This document shows, one piece after another, positions 1,627 to 32,890 of a stretch of 39,767 nt of DNA. Where the stretch lies: contig NZ_JAOBPO010000003.1 in NCBI RefSeq assembly GCF_025574485.1, forward strand, positions 1-39,767, read 5' to 3'. The notes beneath the pieces were generated by a model, which made no database searches, was not told where the DNA came from, and saw nothing but the letters and a program-made list of their open reading frames with translations. The stretch comes from Kordiimonas aquimaris. Lineage in GTDB: Bacteria > Pseudomonadota > Alphaproteobacteria > Sphingomonadales > Kordiimonadaceae. The position numbers and the translations under genes are program-made. Position 1 is the stretch's first letter; each line of letters starts with the position of its first letter.

Positions 1627-1645
1627 CAAATTTCCCGCGTTTCAG

Positions 1646-2044
1646 TTATCCAGTTTCGCCCCCAATACGGCTTGTTTCGAAATCAATTATCTTCTTACAG
1701 GTCATCAGTGCCTTATAATAATTTTTGTCCATCACATCTCGACTGATTTTTACACAGTCATTGATTGCATCCGGATTACTTATCGCACTCATAAACTCAG
1801 TCATGCGCAAAACAAATTCATCATAGTATTTGTTGTTATTTGCTTGATCCATGTACATCAACATAATCGGAAAATAGATCCGCTTAGCTGGTGAGTTAAC
1901 GTTTTCTTCCTGTAAAATGTCCTTTTCTCGAAGAATAGAAGCCTTATTGTGAACAATTAAAGTCGCTCGTCTGTCAGCGTTTGCAATTACTGCGCCATTT
2001 ATCACCAGTTTTTCGTCTGGCTTTAAAGAAAGTTTCAATGCCAT
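1646..2044 (-). CDS. flbT: flagellin mRNA regulator FlbT
   Basis: FlbT is a post-transcriptional regulator of flagellin; in Caulobacter it represses flagellin translation and destabilises the mRNA through its 5' leader. The 132-residue sequence aligns along its length with the family: MALKLSLKPDEKLVINGAV, ADRRATLIVHNKASILREKDI, AKRIYFPIMLMYMD and YYKALMTCKKIIDFE. GGGAGG lies 6 bases before the ATG. No convincing sigma-54 or CtrA site was found directly upstream on this strand. The flbT-flaF-flagellin order, and the head-to-head position with the glycosylation operon at 2284, parallels flagellin regions of other alphaproteobacteria. Confidence 0.95.
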   Translation of the reverse strand: MALKLSLKPDEKLVINGAVIANADRRATLIVHNKASILREKDILQEENVNSPAKRIYFPIMLMYMDQANNNKYYDEFVLRMTEFMSAISNPDAINDCVKISRDVMDKNYYKALMTCKKIIDFETSRIGGETG

Positions 2045-2283: not shown

Positions 2284-4035
2284 GTGGAGATGATTTTGTC
2301 AGCAGCAAGAATGAAAAATGGACAAGTTAGTACTGCTGCTATGCGTAGTAAGCAGGAAAAAGTCACGTTCAGAAAAACCAACACATCAATAAAAGACGTA
2401 AGACGTGCAATAAAACTTGGGCATAAACATGCGAGCGACGAAGAATGGGCTGAAGCAGTAAAGCATCTGGTTATTGCTTGGGATGCAATGCCTGATGATA
2501 TTTCTATACTGACGCTACTTGCACATTCGCTCGTTCAGCTAGGTGTTAGAGATCATGCTCTCGCCGTTCTTGAGCGGGCGTTGAGAGTAAATGAACCTAC
2601 CGTTGAATTAATAGACGTCATTCAACGCTTGGCATTGGACATGGGTTTTTTCGATATTGCGATTAAACTATGCGCTCAACTTATTCAAATGGCACCACGT
2701 GTACCGGGGTACTATGTACAAATGGCCACAGCATATAGTAGTTTGGGTCGGTATGATGAAAGCATCAATATGCTACAGGCAGCTATTCCATTGTTTCCGG
2801 AAAGCGCTGATCTCTGGAATGTTTTGGCCACTCAGGTTCGTGAACGTGATGGATTGGATGCTGCGGATGTATTCTTTGAAGAGGCACTGCGTCTTGATCC
2901 AAATAACTATAAGGTTATCAACAACTATTCCATATCATTCACGCGGCGTAATCAATTCGACAAAGCGCTTGAGTTAGCTTTAAGAGCAACTGAACACAAT
3001 AAAGACCTCCCTGATCCTCATATCGGTGCTGCGCTTTTGCTTTTCATGAAAGGTGAGATGCAGGAAGCATGGAAGCATTATGCATACCGTCAGGATGTAC
3101 GCCGAAGAGCAAACCAATCACAGATATATACGCACAAACTTGACCAGTGGCAGGGGGAGCCTCTTAAAGATAAGACGATATTTGTTACTGCAGAGCAGGG
3201 AATTGGCGATGAAGTTATGTGGGGAAGTTATCTGCCACATATATATAAAGAAGCAAAAAAGTTAATAATTGGGTGTGACCCAAGGCTTGTAAGTATTTAT
3301 CAACGCCGTTTCCCAGACGCGATTGTCGCACGGTATGCTGATAAAATTATGTCTGGGTATCGTTACCGCAGTTTCCCTGATGTTGAATATAAAATGAAGA
3401 GCGGCGATTTGGATATTGATTACTATATCCCTGTGGCATCAATAGCCTCGTTTGCATGGCATACAAGTGATGATATTCGCCCACCTTCAGATGGATATTT
3501 GACTCCATGTCCACAATTGACTGAAACGTTTAAAGAAAAACTAGGTTCAATAAGTCATAAGCCTAAAATAGGTATTGCCTGGCGTAGTGGCCTTATGACG
3601 TCGTCCCGAAACTATCTATATGCGTCAATTGAAGCATTGGGGCCGATATTTGCATTGTCTGATAAAGTTGACTTTATAAACGTACAATACGGAGACGTTG
3701 CAAATGAATTGGCGTTGGCTGAAAAACTGCACGGTGTAAAAATTCATGATTTTCCCGATGTCGACCTGAAGGCAGACATCGAAGCCAACTTGGCTATTAT
3801 GTCTGAATGCGACCTGGTTATTTCTTCATGCTCGGCGCCAGGTATGTTTGCCATGTCTGTTGGTACGCCAACTCTTCTTATGTCAGGCTCAACACCTTGG
3901 TGGCAGTTTGGTCATGATAACATTGTTCCGTTTGCTGCGGATGCTGAAATCATAACCAATACAGGCGACACTGACTGGGAAGATATCGTTCTGCGGTTAA
4001 GCGAACGCGTTAATCAACGATTAGCAAGTTTGTAG
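2284..4035 (+). CDS. flmG: TPR-glycosyltransferase, FlmG-like flagellin glycosyltransferase
   Basis: This protein probably transfers a nonulosonic acid sugar to flagellin. The 583-residue protein has TPR repeats over roughly residues 40-260 (for example AEAVKHLVIAWDAMPDD, ALAVLERALRVN, DAADVFFEEALRLDPNN) and a C-terminal GT-B-like half with KIGIAWRSG, CDLVISSCSAPGMFAMSVGTP and STPWWQFGHD. Caulobacter FlmG has the same architecture and nearly the same length; there the TPR half binds flagellin. The start is uncertain: GTG at 2284, ATG at 2290 and ATG at 2311 are in frame and none has an ideal ribosome site. It is first in the operon behind a sigma-54 promoter and lies beside flbT-flaF-flagellin, which supports the role. 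A general GT9/GT41-like enzyme is the alternative. Confidence 0.8.
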   Translation: MEMILSAARMKNGQVSTAAMRSKQEKVTFRKTNTSIKDVRRAIKLGHKHASDEEWAEAVKHLVIAWDAMPDDISILTLLAHSLVQLGVRDHALAVLERALRVNEPTVELIDVIQRLALDMGFFDIAIKLCAQLIQMAPRVPGYYVQMATAYSSLGRYDESINMLQAAIPLFPESADLWNVLATQVRERDGLDAADVFFEEALRLDPNNYKVINNYSISFTRRNQFDKALELALRATEHNKDLPDPHIGAALLLFMKGEMQEAWKHYAYRQDVRRRANQSQIYTHKLDQWQGEPLKDKTIFVTAEQGIGDEVMWGSYLPHIYKEAKKLIIGCDPRLVSIYQRRFPDAIVARYADKIMSGYRYRSFPDVEYKMKSGDLDIDYYIPVASIASFAWHTSDDIRPPSDGYLTPCPQLTETFKEKLGSISHKPKIGIAWRSGLMTSSRNYLYASIEALGPIFALSDKVDFINVQYGDVANELALAEKLHGVKIHDFPDVDLKADIEANLAIMSECDLVISSCSAPGMFAMSVGTPTLLMSGSTPWWQFGHDNIVPFAADAEIITNTGDTDWEDIVLRLSERVNQRLASL

Positions 4036-4048
4036 CGAGGTATTGATA

Positions 4049-4915
4049 GTGGCCAACAACCCCTTTTTTATATCAGAAGTTTCGAGCAACCACGCTCAGG
4101 ATTTGAATCGTTGTATTGACTTTATCAACCGTTCTGCTGCTATCGGATGCGATGCGGTAAAGTTTCAGTTGTTTAAGTTAGATCAATTATTTGCTCCAGA
4201 AATTTTAGCAAAAAGCGCTGAGCATCGCTCCCGGCGTAGTTGGGAGCTTCCTGTTGAGTTTTTACCCGAACTCAGTGCTGCATCACATACGGCTGGTATC
4301 CAGTTTTCTTGTACGCCTTTTTACTTGGAAGCGGTTGAAGAACTGCTGCCATATGTGGATTTCTATAAGATTGCGTCTTATGAATTGCCTTGGGATGCTC
4401 TTATCGAAGCTTGCGCGAAAACAGGTAAGCCGCTCGTATTATCGACTGGTATGGCGACCCTTGATGAAGTTATTCATGCACGAGATGTTTTTGTCAGTGC
4501 AGGCGGTAAGAATTTAACGCTGCTGCACTGTGTGTCTGGATATCCAGTGAAACCGGCAGATTGTAACCTTGCAGCGATTGAAACTATTCGGGATGTAACA
4601 TCATGTGCCGTTGGCTGGTCAGACCATTCTCGCGACGCCCGTGTGGTTAACCACGCGATTGATAAATGGAGCGCAAGCATGATTGAGTTCCATCTTGATT
4701 TAGACGAGCAGGGCGCTGAATACAAAACAGGTCATTGTTGGCTGCCTGATGAAATAGCGCCGGTTATTGCGTGGCAAACCGTGAAAGCAGAAGCGGATGG
4801 TATGGGAGTTAAAGCACCAACCAAGGCGGAAATTGATGACCGTCCATGGCGTGCTGACCCTTCTGATGGTTTGAGGCCTTTACGAGAGCTGAGGGCAACA
4901 TGGCAAGCAAAGTAA
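4049..4915 (+). CDS. pseI: NeuB-family nonulosonate synthase (PseI-like), lacking SAF domain
   Basis: NeuB-family enzymes condense a 6-deoxy hexosamine or ManNAc-type sugar with phosphoenolpyruvate to give a nine-carbon acid. The TIM-barrel signatures are present: FISEVSSNHAQDL near the start, AIGCDAVKFQLFK, FSCTPFYLEAVEEL, VDFYKIASYEL, KPLVLSTGMATLDEV, LLHCVSGYPVK and VGWSDHS. The GTG at 4049 is chosen because GAGG lies 9 bases upstream; the in-frame TTG at 4043 is too close. The resulting 288 residues stop after the barrel, so the C-terminal antifreeze-like SAF domain of typical NeuB/PseI (about 340-350 residues) is absent. The gene starts 13 bases after flmG and its end overlaps the next gene. 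Confidence 0.85.
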   Translation: MANNPFFISEVSSNHAQDLNRCIDFINRSAAIGCDAVKFQLFKLDQLFAPEILAKSAEHRSRRSWELPVEFLPELSAASHTAGIQFSCTPFYLEAVEELLPYVDFYKIASYELPWDALIEACAKTGKPLVLSTGMATLDEVIHARDVFVSAGGKNLTLLHCVSGYPVKPADCNLAAIETIRDVTSCAVGWSDHSRDARVVNHAIDKWSASMIEFHLDLDEQGAEYKTGHCWLPDEIAPVIAWQTVKAEADGMGVKAPTKAEIDDRPWRADPSDGLRPLRELRATWQAK

Positions 4916-6654
4916 TCGCAATTATAGGCGCTCGATTAGGGTCTAGCAGGCTGCCTGGCAAACAACTGCTACCACTTGTTGGTAAACCATTAATTGCGCG
5001 CCTAGTTGACCGGTTGCAATCTGTTGCAGAAATTGAAGAAATTGTCATTGCCACAACTGCAAGCGATGAAAATATACCATTATGTGAATGGGCAAAAAGT
5101 TATGGTACCCATGTTTTTGCCTGGGGCGGCGATGAGGATGACCTTGTTGGCCGTGTAGATGCCGTTGTTAAAGAATATGATGCAACAACATTTGTATATG
5201 TATGCGGTGATTGTCCTATGGTTGAACCTTCAACTATTAGCGCGCTTCTTAGACAATCAATAAGTATGCCTTCTGATGGCATTGCAAAGTTAAAACCATC
5301 ACATTCTGGTCTGCCTTTTATCCATGAAGGCTTCGATGTGTTTAATCTAAACTTTTGGCGGTCGATGGTTTCTGTCGCACATGAGCCATTTGAACGTGAG
5401 CATATTGGAGCGGTTTATCATCATTTAAATAAAGTGGAGCCGAGTGAGGTTGCTTACCTGACTGAAGATCAAGCCTATGCTGAGTTTCAGCACCGCCTTT
5501 CAGTTGATACGCCAGACGACTATGCCTTTATGACACGTGTATACAATGAATGGTACTGTGATCACGCAGATAATACGCTAGTGGATCTCAAGTGGCTTAT
5601 TCATAAGTTAAAGTCTGAACCGGAGTTGGTGGCGATCAATGCTAACGTAAGACAAAAAACGGTTCATGATACAGCTCTTCGTGTTGCTATATTATGTGAG
5701 GCGGGACCACAATTGGGCTTGGGGCATCTTACGCGATCATGTGTCGTTGCATCAGCACTCAAAAATCAAATAAGTGCGGATGTAAATCTCTTCATAAAAG
5801 CCGATCCATTTTCTTTTAAAGAACTGGATTATGTGAAGCATAATTACGTTAGAAATTTCAGTAGTATACGTGATATTTATGATGTTGTTATTCTGGATTT
5901 AAAAGCAATAGATCACCATACAAATTCGTTGCTTGGAAAGCTCAATGATCAAACATTAATTGTTGGCGTTGATATTCAGGCTATGAATGCGGACTTATTT
6001 GACTTGGTATGGATGCCATCTGTTCATGTCCCTCAAAAGCTTATTAAGTCTGCAGGCACACGACTGCGTTATGGAATGTCGTGTTACCTTTTGCGTGATC
6101 CAAATCAAGTTTCCTGCCGCCCTGACATGATTAAAGAGAAGTCGGTCATCGTTTTAACTGGTGGTGCTGACCCGATTGGTTTGTCTCAAACATTACCTGA
6201 ACAAATCAGAAATGTGCTGGCGGACGATACTAAAATTACTTGGGTACGTGGTCCGTATGCAAATGAACCAAATATTGATACAAACCGAGAAAATTTCGTT
6301 GTTCTAAACGCACCAGAGGGCTTGCACGGAATTATTAGTGAGCACACGTACAGCTTATGCGTTTACGGTGTCACCTTTTATGAATGTTTGCGCGCTGGTG
6401 TCCCTACTGTTGTTTTTGATCCGATAGGCGCTGCCACCAAGGAAGAATGGACGTTACTGAAAGAGCTGTTACCCGAGTTAGTGGCTGATGACATTGACGA
6501 TGCTTTTGAGAAACTGAATAAGCTCAATGCCAATGGATATGATAGAGGTTTAAGCGAGATTGCTGAAAAACTGGCAGATGGTCCAAACAGCTTTGCCGAC
6601 ACGGTAAAAACATTTCACACTGAAAAACGGAAGCTTCAACATGCAACAGCGTGA
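4900..6654 (+). CDS. bifunctional PseF-like cytidylyltransferase + PseG-like hydrolase
   Basis: Two pathway steps appear fused in 584 residues. Residues 1-245 are a SpsF/CMP-sugar nucleotidyltransferase domain, with IIGARLGSSRLPGK (8-21) and GDCPMVEP (103-110); this would activate the nonulosonic acid with CMP. Residues 259-575 are PseG-like, with AGPQLGLGHLTRS (268-280), whose H276 corresponds to the catalytic His of PseG, and a UDP-sugar-binding half with VLTGGADP and YGVTFYECLRAGVPTVVFDP. PseG removes UDP from the 2,4-diamino sugar before the PseI step. The gene overlaps its upstream neighbour by 16 bases and its downstream one by 14. Substrate identity is inferred from context. Confidence 0.85.
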   Translation: MASKVIAIIGARLGSSRLPGKQLLPLVGKPLIARLVDRLQSVAEIEEIVIATTASDENIPLCEWAKSYGTHVFAWGGDEDDLVGRVDAVVKEYDATTFVYVCGDCPMVEPSTISALLRQSISMPSDGIAKLKPSHSGLPFIHEGFDVFNLNFWRSMVSVAHEPFEREHIGAVYHHLNKVEPSEVAYLTEDQAYAEFQHRLSVDTPDDYAFMTRVYNEWYCDHADNTLVDLKWLIHKLKSEPELVAINANVRQKTVHDTALRVAILCEAGPQLGLGHLTRSCVVASALKNQISADVNLFIKADPFSFKELDYVKHNYVRNFSSIRDIYDVVILDLKAIDHHTNSLLGKLNDQTLIVGVDIQAMNADLFDLVWMPSVHVPQKLIKSAGTRLRYGMSCYLLRDPNQVSCRPDMIKEKSVIVLTGGADPIGLSQTLPEQIRNVLADDTKITWVRGPYANEPNIDTNRENFVVLNAPEGLHGIISEHTYSLCVYGVTFYECLRAGVPTVVFDPIGAATKEEWTLLKELLPELVADDIDDAFEKLNKLNANGYDRGLSEIAEKLADGPNSFADTVKTFHTEKRKLQHATA

Positions 6655-7588
6655 ATGGCACAGTCCGTTATATGGGGAGCATGTTGGCGCTGTCCTTGAT
6701 CAACATGATGAAATTGAAATTGTGGCATGTAAAAATTGCGGATTTGCGCATGTTATACCAATACCTGCGGCTGAGGCAGTTGAAGCTTTCTATCAGGAAG
6801 ATTTTTACCAGACAGAAAAGTCACGTTATTTGGAAGAAGCACGTGAGGACTTTGAATGGAAAGCTACAGAATTTAACCTTCGGGTGAAGATCGCGAATAG
6901 TTTGCTAGGTCGCGGCGCTGGTCGGGTACTTGATATTGGGTGCGGACCTGGTGATTTTCTGAAGGTAGCGCAAGATGCAGGCTGGGATGCTGTTGGTATA
7001 GAACCTTCACCGATCGCGGCTAAATATGCCAAAGAGCGCGGGCTTAATGTTATAAATGGGTTCTTTGACGCAGAAGCTTCAACAAAATTAGGGCAATTCG
7101 ACTTTATCCATCTAAGCGAAGTTTTAGAACATATCGCAGAACCAATTAAACTTATTACTCTTGCAGAGAAGCTGTTGAATCCAGGCGGTGTACTTTGTGT
7201 GTCAGTTCCTAATGATTACAATGCTTTACAACTTGCCGCAGTACAAAATTCTGGAAAGAAAAAATGGTGGATCGTTCCTGACCATCACCTGAATTATTTT
7301 AATTTTGACAGTCTTGCTAGCACAATTGAGCAATGCGGCCTGACAGTTCGGCAACGATTAACAAATTTTCCTATGGAACTCTTTTTGCTCATGGGCCAAG
7401 ATTACACAAAAGACCCCAAACTAGGTCGTGAATTGCATGGGTTACGCAAGAATTTGGATATTAACCTTGCGACGGTTGATGTTGACGTGATGCTTAAGTT
7501 TTATGAAAGCCTTGCTCAAGCAAATATGGGTCGTCTTGCAATTGTTTTTGCAACTAAACCTTATCCCATGAAAGGTGCTGAGTTATGA
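6641..7588 (+). CDS. class I SAM-dependent methyltransferase
   Basis: The 315-residue protein has a small N-terminal segment with a CKNCGF zinc-knuckle-like motif and then a Rossmann-type methyltransferase domain. The SAM-binding motif I is RVLDIGCGPGDFL, followed by GIEPSPIAAKYAKERG (acidic loop after strand 2), FDFIHLSEVLEHI (motif IV region) and LLNPGGVLCVSVPN. This is the Methyltransf_11/UbiE-type fold seen with sugar biosynthesis clusters. It overlaps both neighbours, with ATGA at its end, implying translational coupling. It may O-, N- or C-methylate the flagellar sugar; the substrate is not readable from the sequence. Confidence 0.88.
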   Translation: MQQREWHSPLYGEHVGAVLDQHDEIEIVACKNCGFAHVIPIPAAEAVEAFYQEDFYQTEKSRYLEEAREDFEWKATEFNLRVKIANSLLGRGAGRVLDIGCGPGDFLKVAQDAGWDAVGIEPSPIAAKYAKERGLNVINGFFDAEASTKLGQFDFIHLSEVLEHIAEPIKLITLAEKLLNPGGVLCVSVPNDYNALQLAAVQNSGKKKWWIVPDHHLNYFNFDSLASTIEQCGLTVRQRLTNFPMELFLLMGQDYTKDPKLGRELHGLRKNLDINLATVDVDVMLKFYESLAQANMGRLAIVFATKPYPMKGAEL

Positions 7589-8661
7589 GTGCCTTTAACA
7601 CAAGATTTGATAGATTCTCTTCGTTTTATTTATACGGTGCCACGCCTGCGGCAAGTGGTACAATAGAATTGTTGCAAGCAATTGATAAACAAATTCTCGG
7701 CTTTGTCGACAAAGACAGCACTAAGCAAAATACAGATTTTATGGGCTATAACGTTTATGCGCCCAGCGTGTTATCTGATGCAAAAAACAACGATACCGGT
7801 ATTATCATTGTGTCAGCATATCAACTTGAAATTGCGGGTTATCTGCAACGGGTAGGTATAGATGCTCAACGTGTTTTTCCGCATTTGGATGGGATGTTTT
7901 TCCCTACATATACAGACAGTTATCTGAGTAATTCGACACTTGATGTGGTGGCTGAAAAGCTAGGTAATGATCAAGAAAAAGGTTATTTTTCTTCATGGAG
8001 GCATTTCAAAGAAACTGGCAACTTGTACGCATTGAAAGCGCTACCTGAAATGAAAAACCAGTATGAGCACGCAGCATGGTGGCAAACTATCGGGCAGGGT
8101 GGCTTGTGCGGAGATATTGGTGCTTATGATGGCGTGTCCTCTATTGAATTTGCAAAGACAGGAAGCTTTTCAAAAATAGTTGCGGTTGAGCCTTTTAGAG
8201 AAAATTTTAACTTGCTGAAAGCAACTATTAAAGAACATGGCTATCAAGACCTCATTGAGCCGCTCCAAATCGCAGCAGGTCAATCCCGCGAAACTATCTG
8301 GCAGGATACCGAGGATGCAAGCAGTCGTTCACGGTTGAACGCAAACAGCAACGTGTCGAGTGTGGATAAGGAACAAATAGAGGTTTTTCCTATTGATGCA
8401 CTTGATATGCAAGGCTTAACAATGCTGAAAGTTGACATAGAAGGTTTTGAGTTAGCCTTCTTGGAAGGTGCGACTGAAACTATAAAAAAATATCGCCCGC
8501 ATATTGCTATCAGTGCGTATCACGAAAAAACGCATTGTTGCCGTATATTTGAATTTTTTCAGCGTAATTTTGATGGATGGAGTTTGAATGTCGGGCACCA
8601 TCCACAAGCGGTATATGAACTGGAATATTATATTTCATTTGATCAAGGTTCTGCATTATGA
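7585..8661 (+). CDS. FkbM-family methyltransferase with PglD-like N-terminal domain
   Basis: Residues about 150-350 form an FkbM-type SAM methyltransferase: GDIGAYDGVSSIEFAKTG (motif I), VAVEPFRENFNLL, LTMLKVDIEGFELAFLEGA and HIAISAYHE. FkbM relatives commonly O-methylate sugars or polyketides. The first ~110 residues are a separate Rossmann-like module, with FYLYGATPAASGTIELLQ, ILGFVDKD and GIIIVSAYQLEIAGYL, resembling the nucleotide/sugar-binding N-terminal domain of PglD-type proteins. The protein is 358 residues and overlaps its neighbours by ATGA at both ends. It is the second methyltransferase of the operon, which suggests a multiply methylated sugar. Confidence 0.88.
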   Translation: MSAFNTRFDRFSSFYLYGATPAASGTIELLQAIDKQILGFVDKDSTKQNTDFMGYNVYAPSVLSDAKNNDTGIIIVSAYQLEIAGYLQRVGIDAQRVFPHLDGMFFPTYTDSYLSNSTLDVVAEKLGNDQEKGYFSSWRHFKETGNLYALKALPEMKNQYEHAAWWQTIGQGGLCGDIGAYDGVSSIEFAKTGSFSKIVAVEPFRENFNLLKATIKEHGYQDLIEPLQIAAGQSRETIWQDTEDASSRSRLNANSNVSSVDKEQIEVFPIDALDMQGLTMLKVDIEGFELAFLEGATETIKKYRPHIAISAYHEKTHCCRIFEFFQRNFDGWSLNVGHHPQAVYELEYYISFDQGSAL

Positions 8662-9890
8662 AACCGCGATTATTATTACTGGGCGGCGGCATAGAGCAGT
8701 TAAATGCATTGCGCATAGCCAAAGAACTCGGTGCTGATGTGGTTGTTTTTGATGGGCACGATACAGCAGCCTGCGAATTGGAGGCCACCGAATTTCATAC
8801 GGTAAATATCAAGGATCATGAGGCCCTATTAGCAAAAGCTGAAAGTTCAAAGGTAAGTGCGGTTTTTGTACACGCCGCAGAATTGGCAATTGAGTGTGCA
8901 TTGGTGGCAGAGCATTTGAAGCTACCGGGAATACCAGTGCATGTTGCGGAACTTGGCACCGATAAAAGCTTGAGATCAGCGTGTTTTCAAAAGGCAGGCA
9001 TCCATATTCCCTCTTTTAGAAGTATTCCTGCAAATAGTTCCTATGAGGTTTGGCAGAAAATGGCCTCAGAAATAGGATTCCCGCTTGTTGCAAAACCAAC
9101 AAAATTGGCAGGCGCACAAGGGGTCGAATACATTGCTGGTGAGCTGGAGCTTTCTGACTATTTTACCCGTTCAGCCTGTTTTGATAAACAAAGCTTTGTT
9201 GTTGAAGAATATATTGCAGGCGAGCAGTTAAGCACTGAAAGCGTATCTATTGATAGTAAAGTTATAAGTACCAGCACGGCAAAGCGTCACTACGATACGA
9301 CGAAGGGCTTGTGGCCGTATCAAATAGAAGATGGACATTCCATGCCTTGGCAAGATGCACAGGGCATGCGTCCAGAAATTGAAAAAACAATTGAAGCTTG
9401 CCGAAAAGCCTTTGGATTGAAAACTGGGGTTCTTAAAGGTGATGTTGTTATAAAACCAAATGGAGATATTGTCGTTTTAGAAATGGCGGTCAGGACATCT
9501 GGTGGTCGGTTTTGCGACACAGTTGTGCCTCTCTGCTCGGGTATAAATATATTGTATCCACTGATGCAATATGCGCTGGGACAGTCTCCTGACATCAGTT
9601 TTCTAAAACCCAAGCATAATACAGGTGTCTCGCAAAGATTTGTCATATTGCCTGAAGGGACGCGATTGCGTCAGCATAAAATATTGCAGCATTTATTGCT
9701 TGATAAAGACATTATCAGTTCATGGTTTAGAGATGACTTGCATGACCTTGATGTTGTGCCTGCTATTCGTTCTCATCGTGATAGGTTAGGTTATGTGATA
9801 TGTGTCAGTAAAGATCGTAAACTAGCAGACCGGCGGGCACTTGAGGTCGTTGATGAGATTGCAGCCGCATTATGCGAAGTGAGAGAATAA
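8658..9890 (+). CDS. ATP-grasp carboxylate-amine ligase family protein
   Basis: The 410-residue protein has the ATP-grasp layout. An N-terminal pre-ATP-grasp domain carries RLLLLGGGIEQLNALRIAKELG. An ATP-binding half carries GFPLVAKPTKLAGAQGV and VVEEYIAGEQLSTESV. A C-terminal metal-binding stretch carries GDVVIKPNGDIVVLEMAVRTSGGR. Such enzymes couple a carboxylate to an amine, thiol or similar group through an acyl phosphate. In this cluster it could acylate an amino group of a diamino sugar or of the nonulosonic acid; that is inference, made attractive by the absence of a PseH acetyltransferase. It is translationally coupled to both neighbours. Confidence 0.85.
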   Translation: MKPRLLLLGGGIEQLNALRIAKELGADVVVFDGHDTAACELEATEFHTVNIKDHEALLAKAESSKVSAVFVHAAELAIECALVAEHLKLPGIPVHVAELGTDKSLRSACFQKAGIHIPSFRSIPANSSYEVWQKMASEIGFPLVAKPTKLAGAQGVEYIAGELELSDYFTRSACFDKQSFVVEEYIAGEQLSTESVSIDSKVISTSTAKRHYDTTKGLWPYQIEDGHSMPWQDAQGMRPEIEKTIEACRKAFGLKTGVLKGDVVIKPNGDIVVLEMAVRTSGGRFCDTVVPLCSGINILYPLMQYALGQSPDISFLKPKHNTGVSQRFVILPEGTRLRQHKILQHLLLDKDIISSWFRDDLHDLDVVPAIRSHRDRLGYVICVSKDRKLADRRALEVVDEIAAALCEVRE

Positions 9891-11008
9891 TGAAGATACT
9901 GATAGTTGGTTCGGGGTCTTTTGTCTTTGATGATATGTATGGTCCGGGTGTTATTCTACGGTCTGTTGTTCAGTGGTGTCTTGACACACAGGATGATCAT
10001 AAAAAGACGATTATATTAAGTTACCACTCTTCAGAAAAATTACCTGAAAAGAAAGCTAAAGCAGCAGAAATTCTGAATGAGTTTTCAGCATTGTCGCATG
10101 ATATTGCAATAGAGTTTATCCCGAGTGCAGATATTGCCAGTGTTATCGAAAACGGCGATCTTGCTTCATGCTTTATTGCGGTTCCTGATCAGTTTCATGC
10201 TCTGTATACACGGCTGTGTATCGAAAATAATTGCCCTGTTTGGATAGTTAAACCACTTACCGGCAATTTAGTTGAAGCAAAAGAATTACAGGATTTATGC
10301 AAAGCTCGGAACGGGCGTGTATGGGTTGATTACCATAAACGTTTTGACACATCTAATGCCTTATTAAAAACTAAATTACAGGCAGATGAGTTGGGGCAGG
10401 CATTAGTCTACTCAGTTGATTATCATCAGCCATATATTCTTCCAACACAAGTGTTCGACTGGGCTAAAGATGTCGATGTTTTTTCGTATATTGGATGTCA
10501 TTATGTCGATCAGGTTTTCTATTTATACCCAGATGCGGTTTTGAAATCCGTTTATACCAGTGGCGTCAAAGGCCAAGTCTTCGAAAAAACAGGGCAGTTT
10601 GATTGTGTGTTGGCAAATTTAACATTTCAACATGGTACACATACATTACATGTTCCTATGAATGTTGGATGGTCAAATCCCAAGGGGTCACCAACTAAAA
10701 GCCTACAAACTCTGAAAGTGCAGTGCGAAAACGGTATTGTTAATCTGGATCAAACACGTCGAGGTGTCCAAATTTGGCAGGATGACGGTGTTTCCGAAAT
10801 TAACCCTTATTTCTTTTGCAAAATCAAAGATATATTTGGCCGTTACCGCTATGAAGGGTATGGGTTTGAGAGCGTTAAAACATTCTTGGATCTTGTTCGA
10901 ACTGATGCGGTATGGGCGAGTAATCAGAGCCTGCCTACGTTAAATGAAGCAGTAAAGACCGAGCATGTTCTTGACGCCGTAAAGCAGTCTTTAATATCTA
11001 AAAGATAG
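9890..11008 (+). CDS. Gfo/Idh/MocA-family NAD(P)-dependent oxidoreductase
   Basis: These enzymes oxidise or reduce sugar hydroxyls with NAD(P). The N-terminal Rossmann motif is ILIVGSGSFVFDD, and the family's EKP-type motif appears as WIVKPLTGN, with the conserved Lys. A second alpha/beta domain follows, with VDYHKRFD and YIGCHYVDQVFYLYPD, where the His/Asp pair is typical of substrate binding. The ATG at 9890 overlaps the upstream stop codon (TAATG) and begins directly with MKILIVGSGS, so it is preferred to a start at 9872; it gives 372 residues. Here it may oxidise or epimerise the sugar being decorated. The substrate is unknown. Confidence 0.85.
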   Translation: MKILIVGSGSFVFDDMYGPGVILRSVVQWCLDTQDDHKKTIILSYHSSEKLPEKKAKAAEILNEFSALSHDIAIEFIPSADIASVIENGDLASCFIAVPDQFHALYTRLCIENNCPVWIVKPLTGNLVEAKELQDLCKARNGRVWVDYHKRFDTSNALLKTKLQADELGQALVYSVDYHQPYILPTQVFDWAKDVDVFSYIGCHYVDQVFYLYPDAVLKSVYTSGVKGQVFEKTGQFDCVLANLTFQHGTHTLHVPMNVGWSNPKGSPTKSLQTLKVQCENGIVNLDQTRRGVQIWQDDGVSEINPYFFCKIKDIFGRYRYEGYGFESVKTFLDLVRTDAVWASNQSLPTLNEAVKTEHVLDAVKQSLISKR

Positions 11009-11067
11009 TATTCAAATTGAGATAGTAAGTTTTCTTCATGTGTATTGTTACAATATGCATATGAAAT

Positions 11068-13092
11068 ATGAAAGAAACTGAATTGAATCAGCCCGTTGTC
11101 TATACGGTATTCCATCTTAATATGGCGTTTTCTTCTATAGAAGAGAGCGATAGACCTGATGTTATTAAACGCTGTTATTGGCCATTATTAGAGCTTGCTC
11201 GCTCAGGTTTTCGCATTGGTATTGAAGCAACGAGTTACACGCTGCGTACAATTCAAACTATTGATCCGTCATGGACAGCGTGCTTGCGACAATGCATTGA
11301 AGGCGATCAAATAGAGTTTGTTGGCAGCGGTTATGTTCAAATGATTGCACCTCTTGTTCCGTCAAACATAACCCGTAAGAATTTAGCTTTTGGCTTAATG
11401 GATTATCAGGAAATTCTTGGTATCGCCCCTGAGGTCTACTTATTTAACGAACAAGCTTATGCACCAGGCATATTACCATTTTATACCGAAATTGGTGCAC
11501 GTGCCGTTATCATGGACAGCTCTGAAACCGCAAGCCGTAGCCCGCAGTGGAACAAAGAGTATTCTCGTAAACCTCAATATATAGAGGGCGCTAATGGAAC
11601 TAAATTGCCGGTTATATGGTCAGATGCAATTTCATTTCAAAAGTTTCAGCGATACGCCCATAATGAAATTGATGCTGACGAATATTTTGAGTTTCTGAGT
11701 TTACAGCTTGGCAGAGGGGTTAGGGCCTTTCCCTTATACACCAGCGATGCAGAAGTATTTGATTATCGTCCCGGTCGTTTCAATTCGGAAGCAAATATTG
11801 GTGTTGTTCCCGAGTATGAGCGAGTTGGGTTGTTGTTCCAGGCACTAGCAAATAGTAAGCAGGTCGTGATTGGTACACCGTCTGATGCCTTGAATATGAT
11901 CTCAACTGATGCAACTGCAATTAAACTTGAGACCGCTCAAGCACCGATACCAGTAAAAAAACAACGAAAGTATAATGTTTTAAGATGGGCTGTAACAGGA
12001 CGTAATGATCTCGTATTAAATACTCATTGTTGGCGACTTAATGAAGCATTCATTGTTAACGGTGCAGATGATAAAGATTGGCGTACACTGTGCTTGCTGT
12101 GGTCGAGTGATTGGCGTACCCACATAACTGAAAAACGCTGGCAAAGCATACAAGCTATGCTCGAGCAAAACCAGGTTGTTGCTCCTGTTTCTGTTACAGA
12201 TATTGCTTGTGATGAAGCGGATGTTCCTGCCGGTGTAACTGTCAGGCGGGAAGGACGTTTCCTTGTCATTGAGGCAGGAAGCTTCCATTTAGCTTTAAAT
12301 TGCGGACGTGGTTTGGCTATTCAATCATTTGGTTTTGGCGCCTACCAACCGGCAAGCGCGGGCGCACCTGCAAAAAATGGGTTGGTAGGAACACTTGCAC
12401 ACGGATTTTATGATGATATTGCATATGGGGCAGATTTTTATAGTGGTCATTATGTTTGTGAACCAGCAGCACAGGCAAAATCAACGGACTTAGTATCGTG
12501 TGAACCAGAGATTTCTTTTGATAAAAATAATCATATAATGATTGTGGGACAAGTGGCCGACATAACTAAAACGCTTGTGATAGATACCCGTAATCCACAT
12601 ATAACCGTTAATTATAGCGCTAATGTTCTGCCACAAAACCATGGAACATTTCGTTGTGGCCACATTAAATTGAACCCGCGAGCCTTTAATCGAGAAACAC
12701 TTTACTATTCGAGTAAAAATGGTGGAGAGCAGCATGAGAGACATAGCTTATTTGCAAACGGGCATTTGATTGAAGTTGACCACGGTGTACCTGTGTCGCG
12801 CCTTGTTTCGGCTACGAACGGCCTTGGTATGACTTCAGGTGTCTTAGAGATTGGGGACGATACACATTTTATAAAGCTAGCGATGAAACGCTCTCATGCA
12901 GCAAGTGTTGGCCTGGTTACGGCACAAACAGTTGCAGAAAGCTTTTTTGTGCGTGCATGCCTAACACTTGCCGAAACAGACGACACGTACAGAGACAAGA
13001 CGTTGTCAGGGTTGACAGCTGTCGAACTCCCGATTGTCGAGTATTCGATTACCTTAGGTAAGCAAGGTAGCCAAGCAGGTAGTGAAGAATAA
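11068..13092 (+). CDS. GH57-like glycoside hydrolase family protein
   Basis: The first ~330 residues match the GH57/polysaccharide-processing TIM-barrel fold. FHLNMAFSSIEE with H16 is the N-terminal conserved region; GIEATSYTLRTI and IEFVGSGYVQMIAPL follow. VYLFNEQAYAPGILPFYTE contains E128 at the place expected for the catalytic nucleophile. Residues about 370-670 form a beta-rich C-terminal domain, as in alpha-amylase/4-alpha-glucanotransferase relatives of GH57. It has no signal peptide, so it acts in the cytoplasm. No obvious ribosome site precedes the ATG. It is separated by 59 bases from the gene before it. A sugar-cleaving or sugar-transferring enzyme in a flagellin glycosylation operon is unexpected; its substrate cannot be told. 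Confidence 0.75.
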   Translation: MKETELNQPVVYTVFHLNMAFSSIEESDRPDVIKRCYWPLLELARSGFRIGIEATSYTLRTIQTIDPSWTACLRQCIEGDQIEFVGSGYVQMIAPLVPSNITRKNLAFGLMDYQEILGIAPEVYLFNEQAYAPGILPFYTEIGARAVIMDSSETASRSPQWNKEYSRKPQYIEGANGTKLPVIWSDAISFQKFQRYAHNEIDADEYFEFLSLQLGRGVRAFPLYTSDAEVFDYRPGRFNSEANIGVVPEYERVGLLFQALANSKQVVIGTPSDALNMISTDATAIKLETAQAPIPVKKQRKYNVLRWAVTGRNDLVLNTHCWRLNEAFIVNGADDKDWRTLCLLWSSDWRTHITEKRWQSIQAMLEQNQVVAPVSVTDIACDEADVPAGVTVRREGRFLVIEAGSFHLALNCGRGLAIQSFGFGAYQPASAGAPAKNGLVGTLAHGFYDDIAYGADFYSGHYVCEPAAQAKSTDLVSCEPEISFDKNNHIMIVGQVADITKTLVIDTRNPHITVNYSANVLPQNHGTFRCGHIKLNPRAFNRETLYYSSKNGGEQHERHSLFANGHLIEVDHGVPVSRLVSATNGLGMTSGVLEIGDDTHFIKLAMKRSHAASVGLVTAQTVAESFFVRACLTLAETDDTYRDKTLSGLTAVELPIVEYSITLGKQGSQAGSEE

Positions 13093-13160
13093 CTTTCGCT
13101 ATCTCTTTGGAAGTGATAACATTTTCTGCATGTACTCAGTGAAATGAGGTAGGGGAAATT

Positions 13161-14198
13161 ATGGTTCAAGTGAATTTTACCGGCGCTGGAGTTGACCTAA
13201 CGGATAAATCGGTTTTGATAACCGGTGGTACAGGCTCGTTTGGCAAAAACATGCTTAAGCAATTACTTGCTAACCATAACCCTCGAAGAGTGAGTGTTTT
13301 TGCTCGTGGGGAATACAATCATTTTTTACTTCAAAACTCATTAACGCCTGAAGAACAAAAAAAGGTTCGTTTTTTTATTGGTGATGTGCGCGATATGGAT
13401 CGTATGGTCATGGCTATGCGCGGCATTGATATCGTAATTCATGCTGCCGCACAGAAACAGGTACCTTTAGCTGAATATAATCCGTTTGAATGCATTAGAA
13501 CGAACGTGATTGGTGCAGAAAATGTTGTGCAGTCTTCTATACAGGCTGGCGTTAGTAAAGTAATCGCGTTGTCAACAGATAAGGCCGTTAACCCGATTAA
13601 CTTATACGGTGCGAGCAAACTTGCTTCAGATAAAATTTTTGTTGCTGCAAATGCGCTCGCTTCAGGCACAAATACACGTTTTTCGGTGGTGCGATACGGT
13701 AATGTTCTCGGTTCGCGCGGTAGTGTTATTCCATTTTTCAGAGACTTGATGAATAAAGGGGCAACCGAATTGCCTGTGACTGATGAACGAATGACACGGT
13801 TTTGGGTAACTTTGGATCAGGCTGTAGCTTTCACTATTAGTTGTATTGATATGATGCGCGGCGGTGAAATTTTTGTTCCTAAAATTCCATCAATGAAGAT
13901 TACAGACCTGGTCACTGCATTGGCTCCTGATATGGCTATGAAAATGGTGGGTATCAGGCCTGGTGAAAAGCTTCATGAACTCATGATTACCGAACACAAC
14001 GCACCAACAACGCTTGACTTGCCTGATCGTTATATCATTGAACCTGAATGGGATTTTTGGGAGCGCGCTCCGCATAAAGCAGACAAGTATCCTCTTGTGG
14101 CTGAAAATTTTGAATATACTAGCGATCAAAATGACACATGGATGACGGTTGAAAGTCTTCGGGAAACGTTAAAATCAATACCTGATCAAGGCGAATAG
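13161..14198 (+). CDS. pseB: UDP-GlcNAc 4,6-dehydratase (inverting) PseB/FlmA
   Basis: PseB carries out the first step of pseudaminic acid synthesis: it removes water from UDP-GlcNAc and inverts C5. The 345-residue protein is an extended SDR. It has TGGTGSFGKNMLKQLL (21-36), the subfamily signature FARGEYNHFLLQN (47-59), HAAAQKQVPLAEYNP, and the active site T139-D140-K141 with Y149 and K153 (NLYGASK). VRYGNVLGSRGSVIPFF and GIRPGEKLHE are also typical. AGGGGA precedes the ATG. It is followed after 3 bases by pseC. The Caulobacter equivalent is flmA. A capsule-type C5-inverting dehydratase is the only real alternative. Confidence 0.93.
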   Translation: MVQVNFTGAGVDLTDKSVLITGGTGSFGKNMLKQLLANHNPRRVSVFARGEYNHFLLQNSLTPEEQKKVRFFIGDVRDMDRMVMAMRGIDIVIHAAAQKQVPLAEYNPFECIRTNVIGAENVVQSSIQAGVSKVIALSTDKAVNPINLYGASKLASDKIFVAANALASGTNTRFSVVRYGNVLGSRGSVIPFFRDLMNKGATELPVTDERMTRFWVTLDQAVAFTISCIDMMRGGEIFVPKIPSMKITDLVTALAPDMAMKMVGIRPGEKLHELMITEHNAPTTLDLPDRYIIEPEWDFWERAPHKADKYPLVAENFEYTSDQNDTWMTVESLRETLKSIPDQGE

Positions 14199-14201
14199 CC
14201 C

Positions 14202-15395
14202 GTGTCTGCTGATAAGTTTCTTCCCTATGGTCGGCATGCAATTGACGATGCTGACATTGAGGCCGTTGTTGATGTTTTAAAAAGTGGCATGCTGACATGT
14301 GGGCCGCAAGTTGAACGATTTGAGACTGCATTTGCTAGTTATATTGGCGCCAAGCATGCAGTTGTGTGTTCAAATGGTACCGCAGCATTACATATGGCTG
14401 CTATCGAATGCGGCCTTGGCCCCGGTGACACGGCAATTGTTCCAGCAATTACATTTCTGGCAACAGCAAACGCTGTACGAATGACGGGAGCTGACGTTTG
14501 TTTTGCTGATGTCTGCCCTGATAGTGGCTTGATGACAGCTGAAACATTTTCTGATGCACTTGATCGCAGTAATTCACCAGTTAAAGCAGTTTTACCTGTT
14601 CATATGAACGGACAATCTGGTGAGATTCAAAAAATAGCGGCTATCGCAAGAAAAAAAGATATCAGAATTATTACAGATTGCTGCCATGCACTTGGTTCTG
14701 AATACTTCGGTGGTGGACGGCCTGGTGATGGTCAATATGAAGAGTATGCAACATTTTCGCTTCATCCTGTTAAGTCGATTGCGATGGGGGAAGGTGGAGT
14801 TGTTACCACGAACGATGCTAAGGCAGCTCAACGATTACGTATGCTTCGTGGTCACGCGATGGAACGTAATCCGGAAAGCTGGCAAAATGGCAAACTAGCT
14901 TTTGCTGAAGATGGTAGCGGCAATCCATGGTATTATGAGATGGATAAGTTGGCATACAATTACCGTGCGACGGATATGCAGTGTGCTTTAGGACTTAGTC
15001 AGTTAAAGAAGCTTGATGATTTTATCAAAAAACGCCGCCAAATTGCAGATTGGTATGACGAAAAACTTAAGTCGCTGAGTAATCGCCTGCAGCCTATTGA
15101 TAGGTCTGCTTATTCAAATTCTGCTTGGCATCTTTATGCGGTTTTGATTGATTTTGAATTATGTAATCGTGATCGCGGTGCTTTGATGCGGTACATGTTA
15201 GAGCAAGGCGTCGGTTCACAAGTGCACTATGTGCCAGTATCTAATCAGCCGTATTACAGGAAATTGTATGGTAAGCAGGATTTGCCGGGCACGCATCGTT
15301 ACTACGATAGAGTTCTTAGTTTGCCTATTTTTCCTGATATGTCTGAAGCTGATGTAGAGAAAGTCGTTACTGTTCTTAGTGATGCGTTGAATTAA
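14202..15395 (+). CDS. pseC: UDP-4-keto sugar aminotransferase PseC/FlmB
   Basis: PseC transfers an amino group from glutamate to the 4-keto sugar made by PseB, using PLP. The 397-residue sequence is of the DegT/DnrJ/EryC1 class. SNGTAALHMA is the phosphate-binding turn, VPAITFLATANAV follows, D159/C160 and H162 lie in ITDCCHALGS, and the Schiff-base Lys is K191 in FSLHPVKSIAMGEGG. NYRATDMQCALGLSQL and WHLYAVLI are further family motifs. Translation starts at GTG (14202), with AAGGCG about 8 bases upstream. It directly follows pseB and is the last gene of the operon before a hairpin. The Caulobacter equivalent is flmB. Confidence 0.93.
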   Translation: MSADKFLPYGRHAIDDADIEAVVDVLKSGMLTCGPQVERFETAFASYIGAKHAVVCSNGTAALHMAAIECGLGPGDTAIVPAITFLATANAVRMTGADVCFADVCPDSGLMTAETFSDALDRSNSPVKAVLPVHMNGQSGEIQKIAAIARKKDIRIITDCCHALGSEYFGGGRPGDGQYEEYATFSLHPVKSIAMGEGGVVTTNDAKAAQRLRMLRGHAMERNPESWQNGKLAFAEDGSGNPWYYEMDKLAYNYRATDMQCALGLSQLKKLDDFIKKRRQIADWYDEKLKSLSNRLQPIDRSAYSNSAWHLYAVLIDFELCNRDRGALMRYMLEQGVGSQVHYVPVSNQPYYRKLYGKQDLPGTHRYYDRVLSLPIFPDMSEADVEKVVTVLSDALN

Positions 15396-15514: not shown

Positions 15515-16345
15515 TTAGTTGTTAAATAGCGCCAGAATAGACTGAGGTGATTGGTTGGCAATCGAGAGCGCTTGAATGCCGAGCTGTTGCTTAACTTGTA
15601 GCGCTTGTAAGTTGGCGCTTTCAACGGCAAGGTCTGCATCAACGAGGTTACCGATACCAATTTCGATAACATCAGAAAGCTGGCCAGCAAAGGTGCGGCT
15701 TTGTTCTAGTGATGTTGAGCCTGCACCCAAGCGAGTTAGCGCTGCATTGAGATTGTCGATAGAGTTGTTAACATCTGTTACCGCTGCAGCAGCAGTTGTT
15801 TGTGTTAAAATTTCCTGTGATGCAGTGATCGGAATATTTGCACTACCAAGTGTAAGGTCCTGGTGTTCAACTGTCAGCGTTTGTGTTGCGTCAGAGTTTG
15901 TGATTGCAACAATCGCGTCTGTTCCATTGTCAATGAGGTTACTTCCGTTAAACTCTGCATTGCTTGTAATTTGTGTGATTTGGTCTCTAAGGGCTACAAA
16001 ATCCTGCGATAATGCGTTCCGGCTAGCTGTATCCAGACCCTGATCAGACGCTGCAACAGCGCGTTCTTTAAGGTCAAGTAAAAGGTCGGAGATCGCATTT
16101 GCCGCGGCGAGGGCAACATCAACTGTAGAAATACCACGATCAAGTGATTGCCCCACAGCTGAAAGGCCGCGGAGATCACCTCTAAGCGTTTGTGCGATAG
16201 AAAACACGGCAGCATTATCTTTTGCCGATGAAATTCGAAGGCCTGTATTAATACGTGTTTGTACATCCTGCAGGTCGCCGCTTGTTTGATTCAAGTTACG
16301 CAGTGCGTCGAGAGCACTGGCGTTTACATTAATTGAAAAGGCCAT
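15515..16345 (-). CDS. flagellin (complete, second copy)
   Basis: This is a complete 276-residue flagellin. It has the N-terminal D0/D1 region MAFSINVNASALDALRNLN, INTGLRISSAKDNAAVFSIAQ, a short middle segment, and the C-terminal helix QALQVKQQLGIQALSIANQS ending SILALFNN. It shares long blocks with the flagellin at 1-812, such as AVAASDQGLDTASRNAL, AEFNGSN and IEIGIGNLVDADLA, so the two are paralogues. GGAGAGG lies before the ATG and a near-perfect sigma-54 promoter lies at 16407-16422. The pair brackets the glycosylation operon, which makes both likely substrates of the FlmG-like enzyme. Confidence 0.96.
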   Translation of the reverse strand: MAFSINVNASALDALRNLNQTSGDLQDVQTRINTGLRISSAKDNAAVFSIAQTLRGDLRGLSAVGQSLDRGISTVDVALAAANAISDLLLDLKERAVAASDQGLDTASRNALSQDFVALRDQITQITSNAEFNGSNLIDNGTDAIVAITNSDATQTLTVEHQDLTLGSANIPITASQEILTQTTAAAAVTDVNNSIDNLNAALTRLGAGSTSLEQSRTFAGQLSDVIEIGIGNLVDADLAVESANLQALQVKQQLGIQALSIANQSPQSILALFNN

Positions 16346-32251: not shown

Positions 32252-32586
32252 TCTCAAACCGGAAAGCATGATCTATAAAAATGACAAGAGTTGTTATGAT
32301 TTTCATCACGTGTATGTCAAATCATTAGTCTTTTTTACATGCACTGTATTTATCGTGAGCTATAAATTCTTTATCGTAAAAAATATTTATAATTAACATA
32401 TTGTTTTATATAGTATATTTTATAGTAAAGCCTGACTCACATACTCGTGATGCTTATATCATTTCTCATTTCATTTGATAGCTGTAATATTAGGTGCATG
32501 ACGGATTACCGTCTAAAGAACGAGGGCGGCATTGCTCGAACACAGTGTACGCCACGAGGTTTAGAATTATCGTGAAGGACTTAAAA
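32252..32586 (+). other. 335-bp AT-rich leader region before bufferin operon
   Basis: No gene is visible. The region is strongly AT-rich, with several TATA-like stretches (for example 32408-32425). A perfect short inverted repeat GACGG-ATTA-CCGTC lies at 32500-32513, about 75 bases before the first gene, and could be an operator or leader hairpin. I see no convincing ECF-sigma promoter or terminator. Confidence 0.4.
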
Positions 32587-32862: not shown

Positions 32863-32890
32863 TTATTTTTCGAGCCTTGGACATGATGAC

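Follow-up and report, generated by a model that had tools for sequence, protein, structure and literature searches.

A probable flagellin-glycan operon of Kordiimonas aquimaris without PseH: an ATP-grasp ligase, a SAF-less NeuB and its GH57-like partner

The stretch of DNA analysed here, referred to as the window, comprises 39,767 nucleotides at the start of contig NZ_JAOBPO010000003.1 (C20) of Kordiimonas aquimaris, whose genome is 3.81 Mb in size. Our subject is a run of ten plus-strand genes, separated by overlaps or by gaps of at most 69 bases, which lies between the flagellar genes for FlaF and FlbT (1156-2044) and a flagellin gene on the minus strand (15515-16345) and which includes relatives of the genes for pseudaminic acid synthesis. 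The genes of the run and of its flanks are, in order:

1156-1629, minus strand: FlaF, flagellar flank of the island (PF07309, 109.9 bits)
1646-2044, minus strand: FlbT, flagellar flank of the island (PF07378, 149 bits)
2284-4035, plus strand: TPR protein of 583 residues, candidate FlmG-type flagellin glycosyltransferase (TPR_19, 63 bits, residues 119-182)
4043-4915, plus strand: short NeuB-type synthase of 290 residues without a SAF domain (PF03102, 175.5 bits)
4900-6654, plus strand: fusion of 584 residues, cytidylyltransferase in the N-terminal half and PseG-like uridine diphosphate (UDP)-sugar hydrolase in the C-terminal half
6641-7588, plus strand: class I S-adenosylmethionine methyltransferase of 315 residues (Methyltransf_23, 104.3 bits)
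7585-8661, plus strand: FkbM-family methyltransferase of 358 residues (TIGR01444, 76.2 bits, cut-off 37.7)
8658-9890, plus strand: ATP-grasp ligase of 410 residues (ATP-grasp_4, 29.4 bits, cut-off 27)
9872-11008, plus strand: Gfo/Idh/MocA oxidoreductase, possibly starting in fact at the ATG at 9890 (PF01408, 35.1 bits, cut-off 24)
11068-13092, plus strand: GH57-like protein of 674 residues (PF03065, 41.7 bits, cut-off 21.2)
13161-14198, plus strand: PseB, UDP-N-acetylglucosamine 4,6-dehydratase (inverting) (TIGR03589, 487.9 bits, cut-off 407.75)
14202-15395, plus strand: PseC aminotransferase (TIGR03588, 452.8 bits, cut-off 423.5)
15515-16345, minus strand: flagellin of 276 residues, the presumed acceptor (Flagellin_N, 103.3 bits; Flagellin_C, 49.3 bits)

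The same genes recur in identical order in three more genomes of the genus (G003, G008 and G014), and the content of the operon is therefore not a matter of chance. PseB and PseC are full members of their families, scoring above the NCBIfam cut-offs, whereas the PseI-, PseF- and PseG-like parts are relatives that fall below theirs. The initial annotation had all five steps in place; this holds for PseB and PseC, but the other three are present as sub-threshold relatives and the synthase, which lacks the SAF domain, is not an ordinary PseI. Its list of an ATP-grasp enzyme, a Gfo/Idh/MocA enzyme, a class I methyltransferase and an FkbM methyltransferase is matched by profiles throughout, though the GH57-like and TPR genes had been overlooked. 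Its remark that the operon lacks PseH is also borne out, since none of the ten operon proteins matched an acetyltransferase family in a profile search. Extending the check to the whole genome, as had been proposed, gave no PseH over the curated cut-off of 93.1 bits. The best match is a GNAT with 44.9 bits and the second has 33.6 bits; both are encoded outside the window, and the former adjoins genes that we read by eye as gatA and gatB, an arrangement with a like in genome G022. For comparison, PseH matches at E ≤ 0.001 occur in 13 of 14 control genomes and exceed the cut-off in one. A separate search of 12 genomes, several of which overlap the samples described below, returned none above the cut-off, with a best score of 67.7 bits.

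The NeuB-type synthase scores 145.9 bits against the PseI profile TIGR03586 (cut-off 340.25), and a profile search found no SAF domain in its 290 residues. In the structure model (predicted local distance difference test score, pLDDT, 93.7), the chain stops after the barrel with a short tail. The nearest folds in the PDB are those of Neisseria meningitidis NeuB, with Campylobacter jejuni PseI also ranking high. In the conserved tail of residues 267-284, eight positions, W269, R270, D272, P273, D275, G276, R278 and P279, are kept in 71/71 short NeuBs. Residues E12, K40, Q42, K109, S112, H195 and H217 are common to the short NeuB and two long NeuBs, and we take them to have metal and phosphoenolpyruvate (PEP) roles. 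In a tree of 31 NeuBs, a long branch separates 22 short from nine long sequences with a Shimodaira–Hasegawa-like approximate likelihood ratio (SH-aLRT) of 100, although the tightness of the short group is partly by choice, because its members were picked as near relatives of the window's protein. PDB entry 6ncs, a NeuB chain of 290 residues, was considered as a solved short NeuB and set aside; its alignment ends before the conserved tail. In the NeuB of Caulobacter, Arg322 of the SAF domain is essential (PMC7591256).

The N-terminal half of the fusion protein matches CTP_transf_3 with 72.8 bits over residues 6-210 and PseF with 29 bits against a cut-off of 205.7, and it is closer to the KdsB group. 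The C-terminal half matches PseG with 42.8 bits (cut-off 153.55) over residues 261-506 and carries the GxGHxxR motif, which is kept in 45 of 47 fusion homologues longer than 520 residues. Homologues of the TPR protein with 36-61% identity lie in the stretches of 8 of 14 relatives, several of the others ending before that place. No Pfam transferase family matches this protein, and the best PDB sequence match of its C-terminal part is a xylanase with E = 0.09; it is named as a candidate FlmG-like protein by analogy with Caulobacter FlmG (PMC7591256).

Comparison within the genus suggests what this gene set stands in for. In G006, the same site holds genes for FlbT, an FlmG-like protein (60% identical to the TPR protein of the window), a long NeuB, PseG, PseF, PseH, PseB, PseC and flagellin, where PseG and PseF are named by place and by likeness to other classical loci. 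The gene set of the window thus occupies the place of the classical PseI-G-F-H block. Together with the absence of PseH at the cut-off, this makes a different acyl group on the 4-amino nitrogen, as the initial annotation had supposed, the best reading. By analogy with S. oneidensis, the O-methylation of the sugar that it put forward is plausible.

The distribution of the genes was followed in two samples. In 59 genomes of the order, K. aquimaris included, the short NeuB (E < 1e-100) is found in 20. The GH57-like gene is found in the same 20 and in G056, which is 78% complete and is the only genome of either sample with this gene and no detected short NeuB. The ATP-grasp gene (E ≤ 1e-17) is present in 19 of the 20, the fragmented assembly G022 being the one without it, and also in G055 and G056. 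PseH matches of at least 70 bits occur in six genomes (G004, G006, G024, G031, G035 and G041), four of them above the cut-off and none with a short NeuB (Fisher p = 0.087 over the 59 genomes; p = 0.004 over the 36 with any NeuB at E ≤ 1e-20). Among 77 Shewanella genomes, 18 have the short NeuB and exactly the same 18 have the GH57-like gene, while 29 others have a long NeuB (E ≤ 1e-20); no genome has both. PseH exceeds the cut-off in seven of the 77, all among the 29 with a long NeuB (p = 0.034 among NeuB-bearing genomes; the genomes are related, and this and the preceding p-values overstate independence). Of the 20 order genomes that carry the short NeuB, 11 have it as their sole NeuB match (E ≤ 1e-3), seven of these 11 being at least 99% complete. 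It should therefore make the nonulosonic acid there, unless a divergent NeuB escaped the search, and it is probably the sugar synthase.

The GH57-like protein accompanies the short NeuB in 38/38 genomes (18/18 Shewanella and 20/20 of the order). No part of the finding is more surprising than this constancy as a core partner of the SAF-less NeuB. Its model (pLDDT 86.9) gives the lowest Foldseek E-values with the 4-alpha-glucanotransferase of Thermococcus litoralis and GH38 mannosidases (1k1x lowest), from which the protein is judged to have the general GH57/GH38 fold. E128 and D227 are invariant in 22 proteins and are presumably, from GH57 motifs, the nucleophile and the acid-base, respectively. 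No NCBIfam model matches the protein at E ≤ 0.001. That it replaces PseG was considered and set aside: the PseG half of the fusion keeps its motif in the homologues noted above, and separate PseG-like genes occur in contigs that bear the GH57-like gene (for example L099 and L109). Because both are present, the protein is not a plain stand-in for PseG. Possible roles are the release or transfer of a glycosyl intermediate, the supply of open-chain sugar to the SAF-less synthase, or a step common to all acids. In one Shewanella genome (G123:C1:695702-697590), the GH57-like gene is in two overlapping pieces, either a split gene or a sequencing error.

Four genes lie between the fusion and the GH57-like gene. 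Residues K103, K146, E183, D262, E275, R279, G282 and G283 of the ATP-grasp protein are kept in at least 90% of 37 sequences and are presumably catalytic, as in other ATP-grasp enzymes. Its identity to the counterparts in G003, G008 and G014 is 56-60%, and its PDB matches are led by 4dim (E = 1.6e-14), labelled phosphoribosylglycinamide synthetase, and include the L-amino acid ligase 3vot (E = 2.4e-9). In a PDB profile search, the Gfo protein matched 59 sequences of the Gfo/Idh/MocA type, none of them close. A Gfo gene with 29% identity also stands between ATP-grasp and GH57 genes in a Nitrospirae contig. The FkbM methyltransferase matches PDB entry 2py6, and its gene is also present in G003, G008 and G014. 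The PDB matches of the class I methyltransferase include sugar 3-C-methyltransferases, and C- rather than O-methylation is therefore possible.

The methyltransferase, FkbM, ATP-grasp and Gfo genes are found in G000, G003, G008 and G014, the last three genes making up the cassette of this type. Four named strains, K. gwangyangensis DSM 19435, K. laminariae 5E331, K. marina A6E486 and K. sediminis KCTC 42590, have different cassettes next to the same short NeuB. Other relatives have a split transketolase, a short-chain dehydrogenase/reductase (SDR) and a divergent ATP-grasp protein, 26-31% identical to that of the window, and some cassettes with the split transketolase add genes for a radical SAM protein, an iron alcohol dehydrogenase or a pyruvyl transferase. 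Three Shewanella contigs, each with an SDR, carry thiamine pyrophosphate (TPP) enzymes of different types: an acetolactate-synthase-type enzyme (L113), a DXS-like enzyme (L137) and a split transketolase (L115). In a contig of Shewanella oncorhynchi (L140, 10922-16821), the cassette with its ATP-grasp gene is inverted, and the short NeuB, GH57 and cytidylyltransferase-PseG genes keep their strand on both sides. The ATP-grasp gene therefore goes with the cassette there and the GH57 gene with the core, as if the cassette had been exchanged as a unit. The cassette of G013 comprises an iron alcohol dehydrogenase, a C-terminal fragment of a TPP enzyme next to a 178-residue protein without a Pfam match, and a long NeuB. 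In this acid cassette (L029, 11050-14239), the NeuB is full length with a SAF domain, and the G013-type acid may itself come from PEP condensation.

A scan with ten short NeuBs gave 263 related sequences in genome contigs, and the 80 best were retrieved. They come from Pseudomonadota, Bacillota, Thermodesulfobacteriota, Nitrospirota, Acidobacteriota and others, many of the closest being titled Kordiimonas or Kordiimonadaceae. For the 47 loci that reach 18 kb or more, each open reading frame was assigned to the profile it matched best (E ≤ 1e-8), and weak matches were counted too. On this basis, a cytidylyltransferase-PseG gene is seen in 39 loci, an ATP-grasp gene in 35, a methyltransferase in 34, a GH57 gene in 29, a long NeuB in one and PseH in none. 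Six loci of Shewanella or Paraglaciecola carry GH57-like and cytidylyltransferase-PseG genes. One contig (L111), titled as a metagenome-assembled genome of Helicobacter pylori PMSS1, has PseB, PseC, a short NeuB and a Gfo gene; this is apparently an environmental contig that was wrongly assigned.

Three known systems are the closest to that of the window. The classical PseB-C-H-G-I-F pathway of Campylobacter and Helicobacter and of the Caulobacter flm genes (PMC7591256) shares with the window PseB, PseC, the PseG-, PseI- and PseF-like steps, a flagellin target and an FlmG-like protein. The window differs from it in having no PseH, a NeuB without a SAF domain and a cytidylyltransferase nearer the KdsB group, and in the addition of the ATP-grasp, Gfo, GH57-like and two methyltransferase genes.

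The second system is sfmABCDE of Shewanella oneidensis MR-1 (SO_3261-SO_3265), in which a 290-residue NeuB comes first and an ATP-grasp protein last, and for which clear orthologues of PseH, PseG, PseI and PseF were reported lacking (PMC3765264). PseB (SO3271) and PseC (SO3270) are used in this organism, and deletion of pseB leaves the flagellins unmodified (PMC3120886). The flagellins carry groups of 510, 524 and 538 Da. The inner unit, C11H18N2O6, is of 274 Da, with one N-acetyl group and one easily protonated nitrogen and without O-methyl; the outer part, of 236, 250 or 264 Da, is described as free of nitrogen and O-methylated, the methyls being placed on this outer moiety as a hypothesis of the authors (PMC3765264). 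Loss of sfmA, sfmB or sfmD is severe and that of sfmC intermediate, and the genes were termed species-specific, being known from one further species (PMC3765264). The window resembles sfm in the 290-residue NeuB that opens the operon, in the methyltransferase and ATP-grasp genes, in the use of PseB and PseC and in the flagellin target; SO_3261 is placed in the short-NeuB subfamily by length, operon order and congeners rather than by sequence. The two differ in that Gfo and FkbM genes take the place of a TPP enzyme (sfmB) and an SDR (sfmC), both absent from the ten operon proteins of the window; in that PseB and PseC lie within the same gene run; and in that the adjoining gene is of the FlmG-like TPR type, the place being taken in S. 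oneidensis by Maf genes (no search for Maf was made in the genome of the window). The available sections of PMC3765264 do not mention a GH57 protein for sfm.

By subtraction, the outer part of the 538 Da form is C11H20O7. We read the outer part as an acid in amide linkage, such as a 3-deoxy-octonic acid carrying one, two or three methyls, for which the arithmetic gives 510.206, 524.222 and 538.237. The amide of a 4-hydroxy acid can lactonise and free the amine, and this would account for the ready loss of the outer part, an explanation that is ours and not that of PMC3765264. A heptonic acid with two or three methyls also fits the first two masses. By this arithmetic, 274.116 plus 176.068 for a singly methylated 3-deoxyhexonoyl group makes 450.185. 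This agrees with the third system, the glycan of Treponema denticola, which, from work of Kurniyati in 2017, is said to be a nonulosonic acid with one N-acetyl and one N7-(2-methoxy-trihydroxyhexanoyl) group. The flagellin glycan of that species has been given as 450.2 Da (PMC9481697).

Taken together, we think it probable that the operon encodes a flagellin-glycan pathway for an N-acylated pseudaminic-type nonulosonic acid, made without PseH and acylated at N7 by the ATP-grasp enzyme. By family membership, PseB and PseC would produce a UDP-4-amino-4,6-dideoxy sugar. From homology, the PseG-like half would release UDP, the SAF-less NeuB would condense the free sugar with PEP, the fused cytidylyltransferase would activate the product and the FlmG-like protein would transfer it onto flagellin. 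In place of the acetylation by PseH, the ATP-grasp enzyme would join a different carboxylic acid in amide linkage to the 4-amino nitrogen, which is N7 in the finished sugar. That acid is most likely polyhydroxy, of the aldonic type; the Gfo/Idh/MocA enzyme would prepare it, and the FkbM enzyme, the class I methyltransferase or both would methylate it. The acid and the role of the ligase are suggested by sfmABCDE and by the swapping of cassettes, while the GH57-like protein, a predicted enzyme, would act in the core beside the SAF-less NeuB. The glycan would then have a mass of 274.116 Da plus that of the acyl group (452.16 in all with a hexonoyl group, for example), with methyl steps of 14.016 Da, rather than 316.127 Da. 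We infer the substrates of all these enzymes, building on what was observed of their families, of PseH at its cut-off, of the exchange at the locus and of co-occurrence. The wider proposal, to which we give an even chance, is that the SAF-less NeuB with its conserved tail and GH57-like partner marks a widespread further branch of nonulosonic acid synthesis, in which many phyla exchange cassettes of acid and ATP-grasp genes and not the sugars.

Several points weigh against these proposals. Deletion of SO_3265, the ATP-grasp gene, leaves S. oneidensis with filaments and able to swim, spreading in soft agar being reduced, and the loss of flagellin mass is slightly less than in the other four mutants (PMC3765264). 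The ligase is therefore not indispensable for sugar synthesis there. It may act after PseG or after activation with cytidine monophosphate (CMP), or the core enzymes may also work on the free amine, and a ligase that is late or dispensable fits poorly with a strict PseH-like step before PseG. As the window has neither the TPP enzyme nor the SDR, its acid would differ from that of Shewanella. A further NeuB match is present in nine of the 20 short-NeuB genomes of the order, that of the window included, and a divergent NeuB could have escaped the search on which the sole-NeuB count depends. One Shewanella genome with a short NeuB (G143) has a sub-threshold GNAT of 60 bits about 90 kb from its GH57 gene. 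The LAL_C2 match of the ATP-grasp protein, a C-terminal domain of L-amino acid ligases, reaches 28 bits against a cut-off of 29.4 and leaves an amino acid open. Finally, ten of the 47 long loci show neither a GH57 nor an ATP-grasp gene. Three of these (L066, L072 and L074) are congeners in which both genes are located beyond the end of the fetched stretch (compare L025, L033 and L026), and seven remain (L083, L093, L095, L097, L104, L112 and L134).

An N-methylglutamyl legionaminic acid is made by Clostridium botulinum, and in the same pathway the ATP-grasp enzyme could likewise add an amino acid or an N-methyl amino acid. The likeness to L-amino acid ligases (LAL_C2 and 3vot) and the methyltransferases of the operon speak for this. 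Nevertheless, LAL_C2 stays below its cut-off, the best PDB match carries the label of a phosphoribosylglycinamide synthetase, the TPP enzymes, SDRs and alcohol dehydrogenases in the cassettes of relatives point to polyol or keto acid chemistry, and the substituent measured in S. oneidensis has no nitrogen (PMC3765264). We consider an amino acid unlikely, if worth keeping in mind. Still less probable is that the methyltransferases and the Gfo enzyme modify the nonulosonic acid itself, for example by O- or C-methylation or by oxidation, with the ATP-grasp enzyme adding a simple unmodified acid. The match of the class I methyltransferase to sugar 3-C-methyltransferases, and the 34 of 47 long loci with methyltransferases of that profile (weak matches included), agree with such a scheme, but the 274 Da core of S. 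oneidensis lacks O-methyl, and the hypothesis of the authors of that work is that the outer moiety bears the methyls (PMC3765264).

Another explanation is that the product is the ordinary di-N-acetyl pseudaminic acid, Pse5Ac7Ac, with another GNAT of the genome acetylating the 4-amino group and the extra genes acting elsewhere. Two GNATs do match PseH weakly, and in Caulobacter the loss of flmH together with two paralogues failed to reproduce the phenotype of neuB (PMC7591256), so the acetylation step can be covered by other enzymes. However, the better GNAT has less than half the bits of the cut-off (44.9 against 93.1) and adjoins gatA- and gatB-like genes, and in both samples no genome with a short NeuB has PseH above the cut-off; this explanation seems to us very doubtful.

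Finally, it is scarcely credible that the short NeuB makes the side-chain acid, from PEP and an aldehyde, while a full-length NeuB encoded on contig C1 makes the flagellar nonulosonic acid: the full-length NeuB and a CMP-sugar synthetase at C1:1178147, the further NeuB matches in nine of 20 genomes, the fit of a 3-deoxy acid to the known S. oneidensis masses by arithmetic and the long NeuB inside the acid cassette of G013 favour it, but 11 of the 20 genomes lack any further NeuB match, none of the 77 Shewanella has both forms (E ≤ 1e-20), the short NeuB belongs to the conserved core and not to the variable cassettes, and the C1 locus reads as one for a polysaccharide. This had been our initial idea, from the length of SfmA, the chemistry of T. 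denticola and the second NeuB, and was dropped on the first three of the counts against it. The C1 locus itself (approximately 1173800-1185900; L020, 7810-19859) is a second nonulosonic acid locus in an apparent polysaccharide cluster, with a formyltransferase (PF00551), an aminotransferase and a dehydratase related to PseC and PseB, the long NeuB, the CMP-sugar synthetase and, by reading only, proteins resembling glycosyltransferases, flippases and polymerases. The presence of the formyltransferase points to an N-formyl sugar.

Elsewhere in the window, two adjacent genes at 27653-29055 resemble, by reading only, those for motor proteins of the MotB/OmpA type. At 32494-34487, close to flagellar genes, a small DUF2282 protein, an enzyme of the MbnB/TglH/ChrH type that modifies ribosomally synthesised and post-translationally modified peptides (RiPPs; 335.2 bits) and a DUF2063 protein follow in a row in what looks like a small RiPP operon, presumably bufferin-like. 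A PEP-CTERM protein is encoded on the minus strand at 39197-39625 (25.9 bits, cut-off 20.7).

The expectation that the product would be of an undescribed sort is not supported in that form, as the glycans of S. oneidensis (PMC3765264) and of T. denticola (450.2 Da; PMC9481697) precede it, and a flagellin sugar made without PseH but with an ATP-grasp protein has been known in outline from S. oneidensis since 2013; the exact acid of the Kordiimonas type may still be new. Among the matches listed in a search of the open-access literature, nothing was found on a flagellin glycan of Kordiimonas, on the exchange of these loci, on NeuBs without a SAF domain as a group or on their GH57 partner. The comparison finds a core of SAF-less NeuB, GH57-like protein and cytidylyltransferase-PseG in the place of PseI-G-F-H, not only in Kordiimonas but also in 18 of the 77 Shewanella genomes and in contigs from many phyla, and a missing pseH is not to be read as a broken pathway. 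This would help to explain the Shewanella glycan and to predict glycan masses in other flagellated bacteria, would give a context to an unassigned group of GH57 proteins and would provide ATP-grasp ligases with the potential to attach unusual acids to amino sugars. If the acid cassettes are indeed swapped, flagella may be more varied in their sugar coat than one would expect from the textbook pathway.

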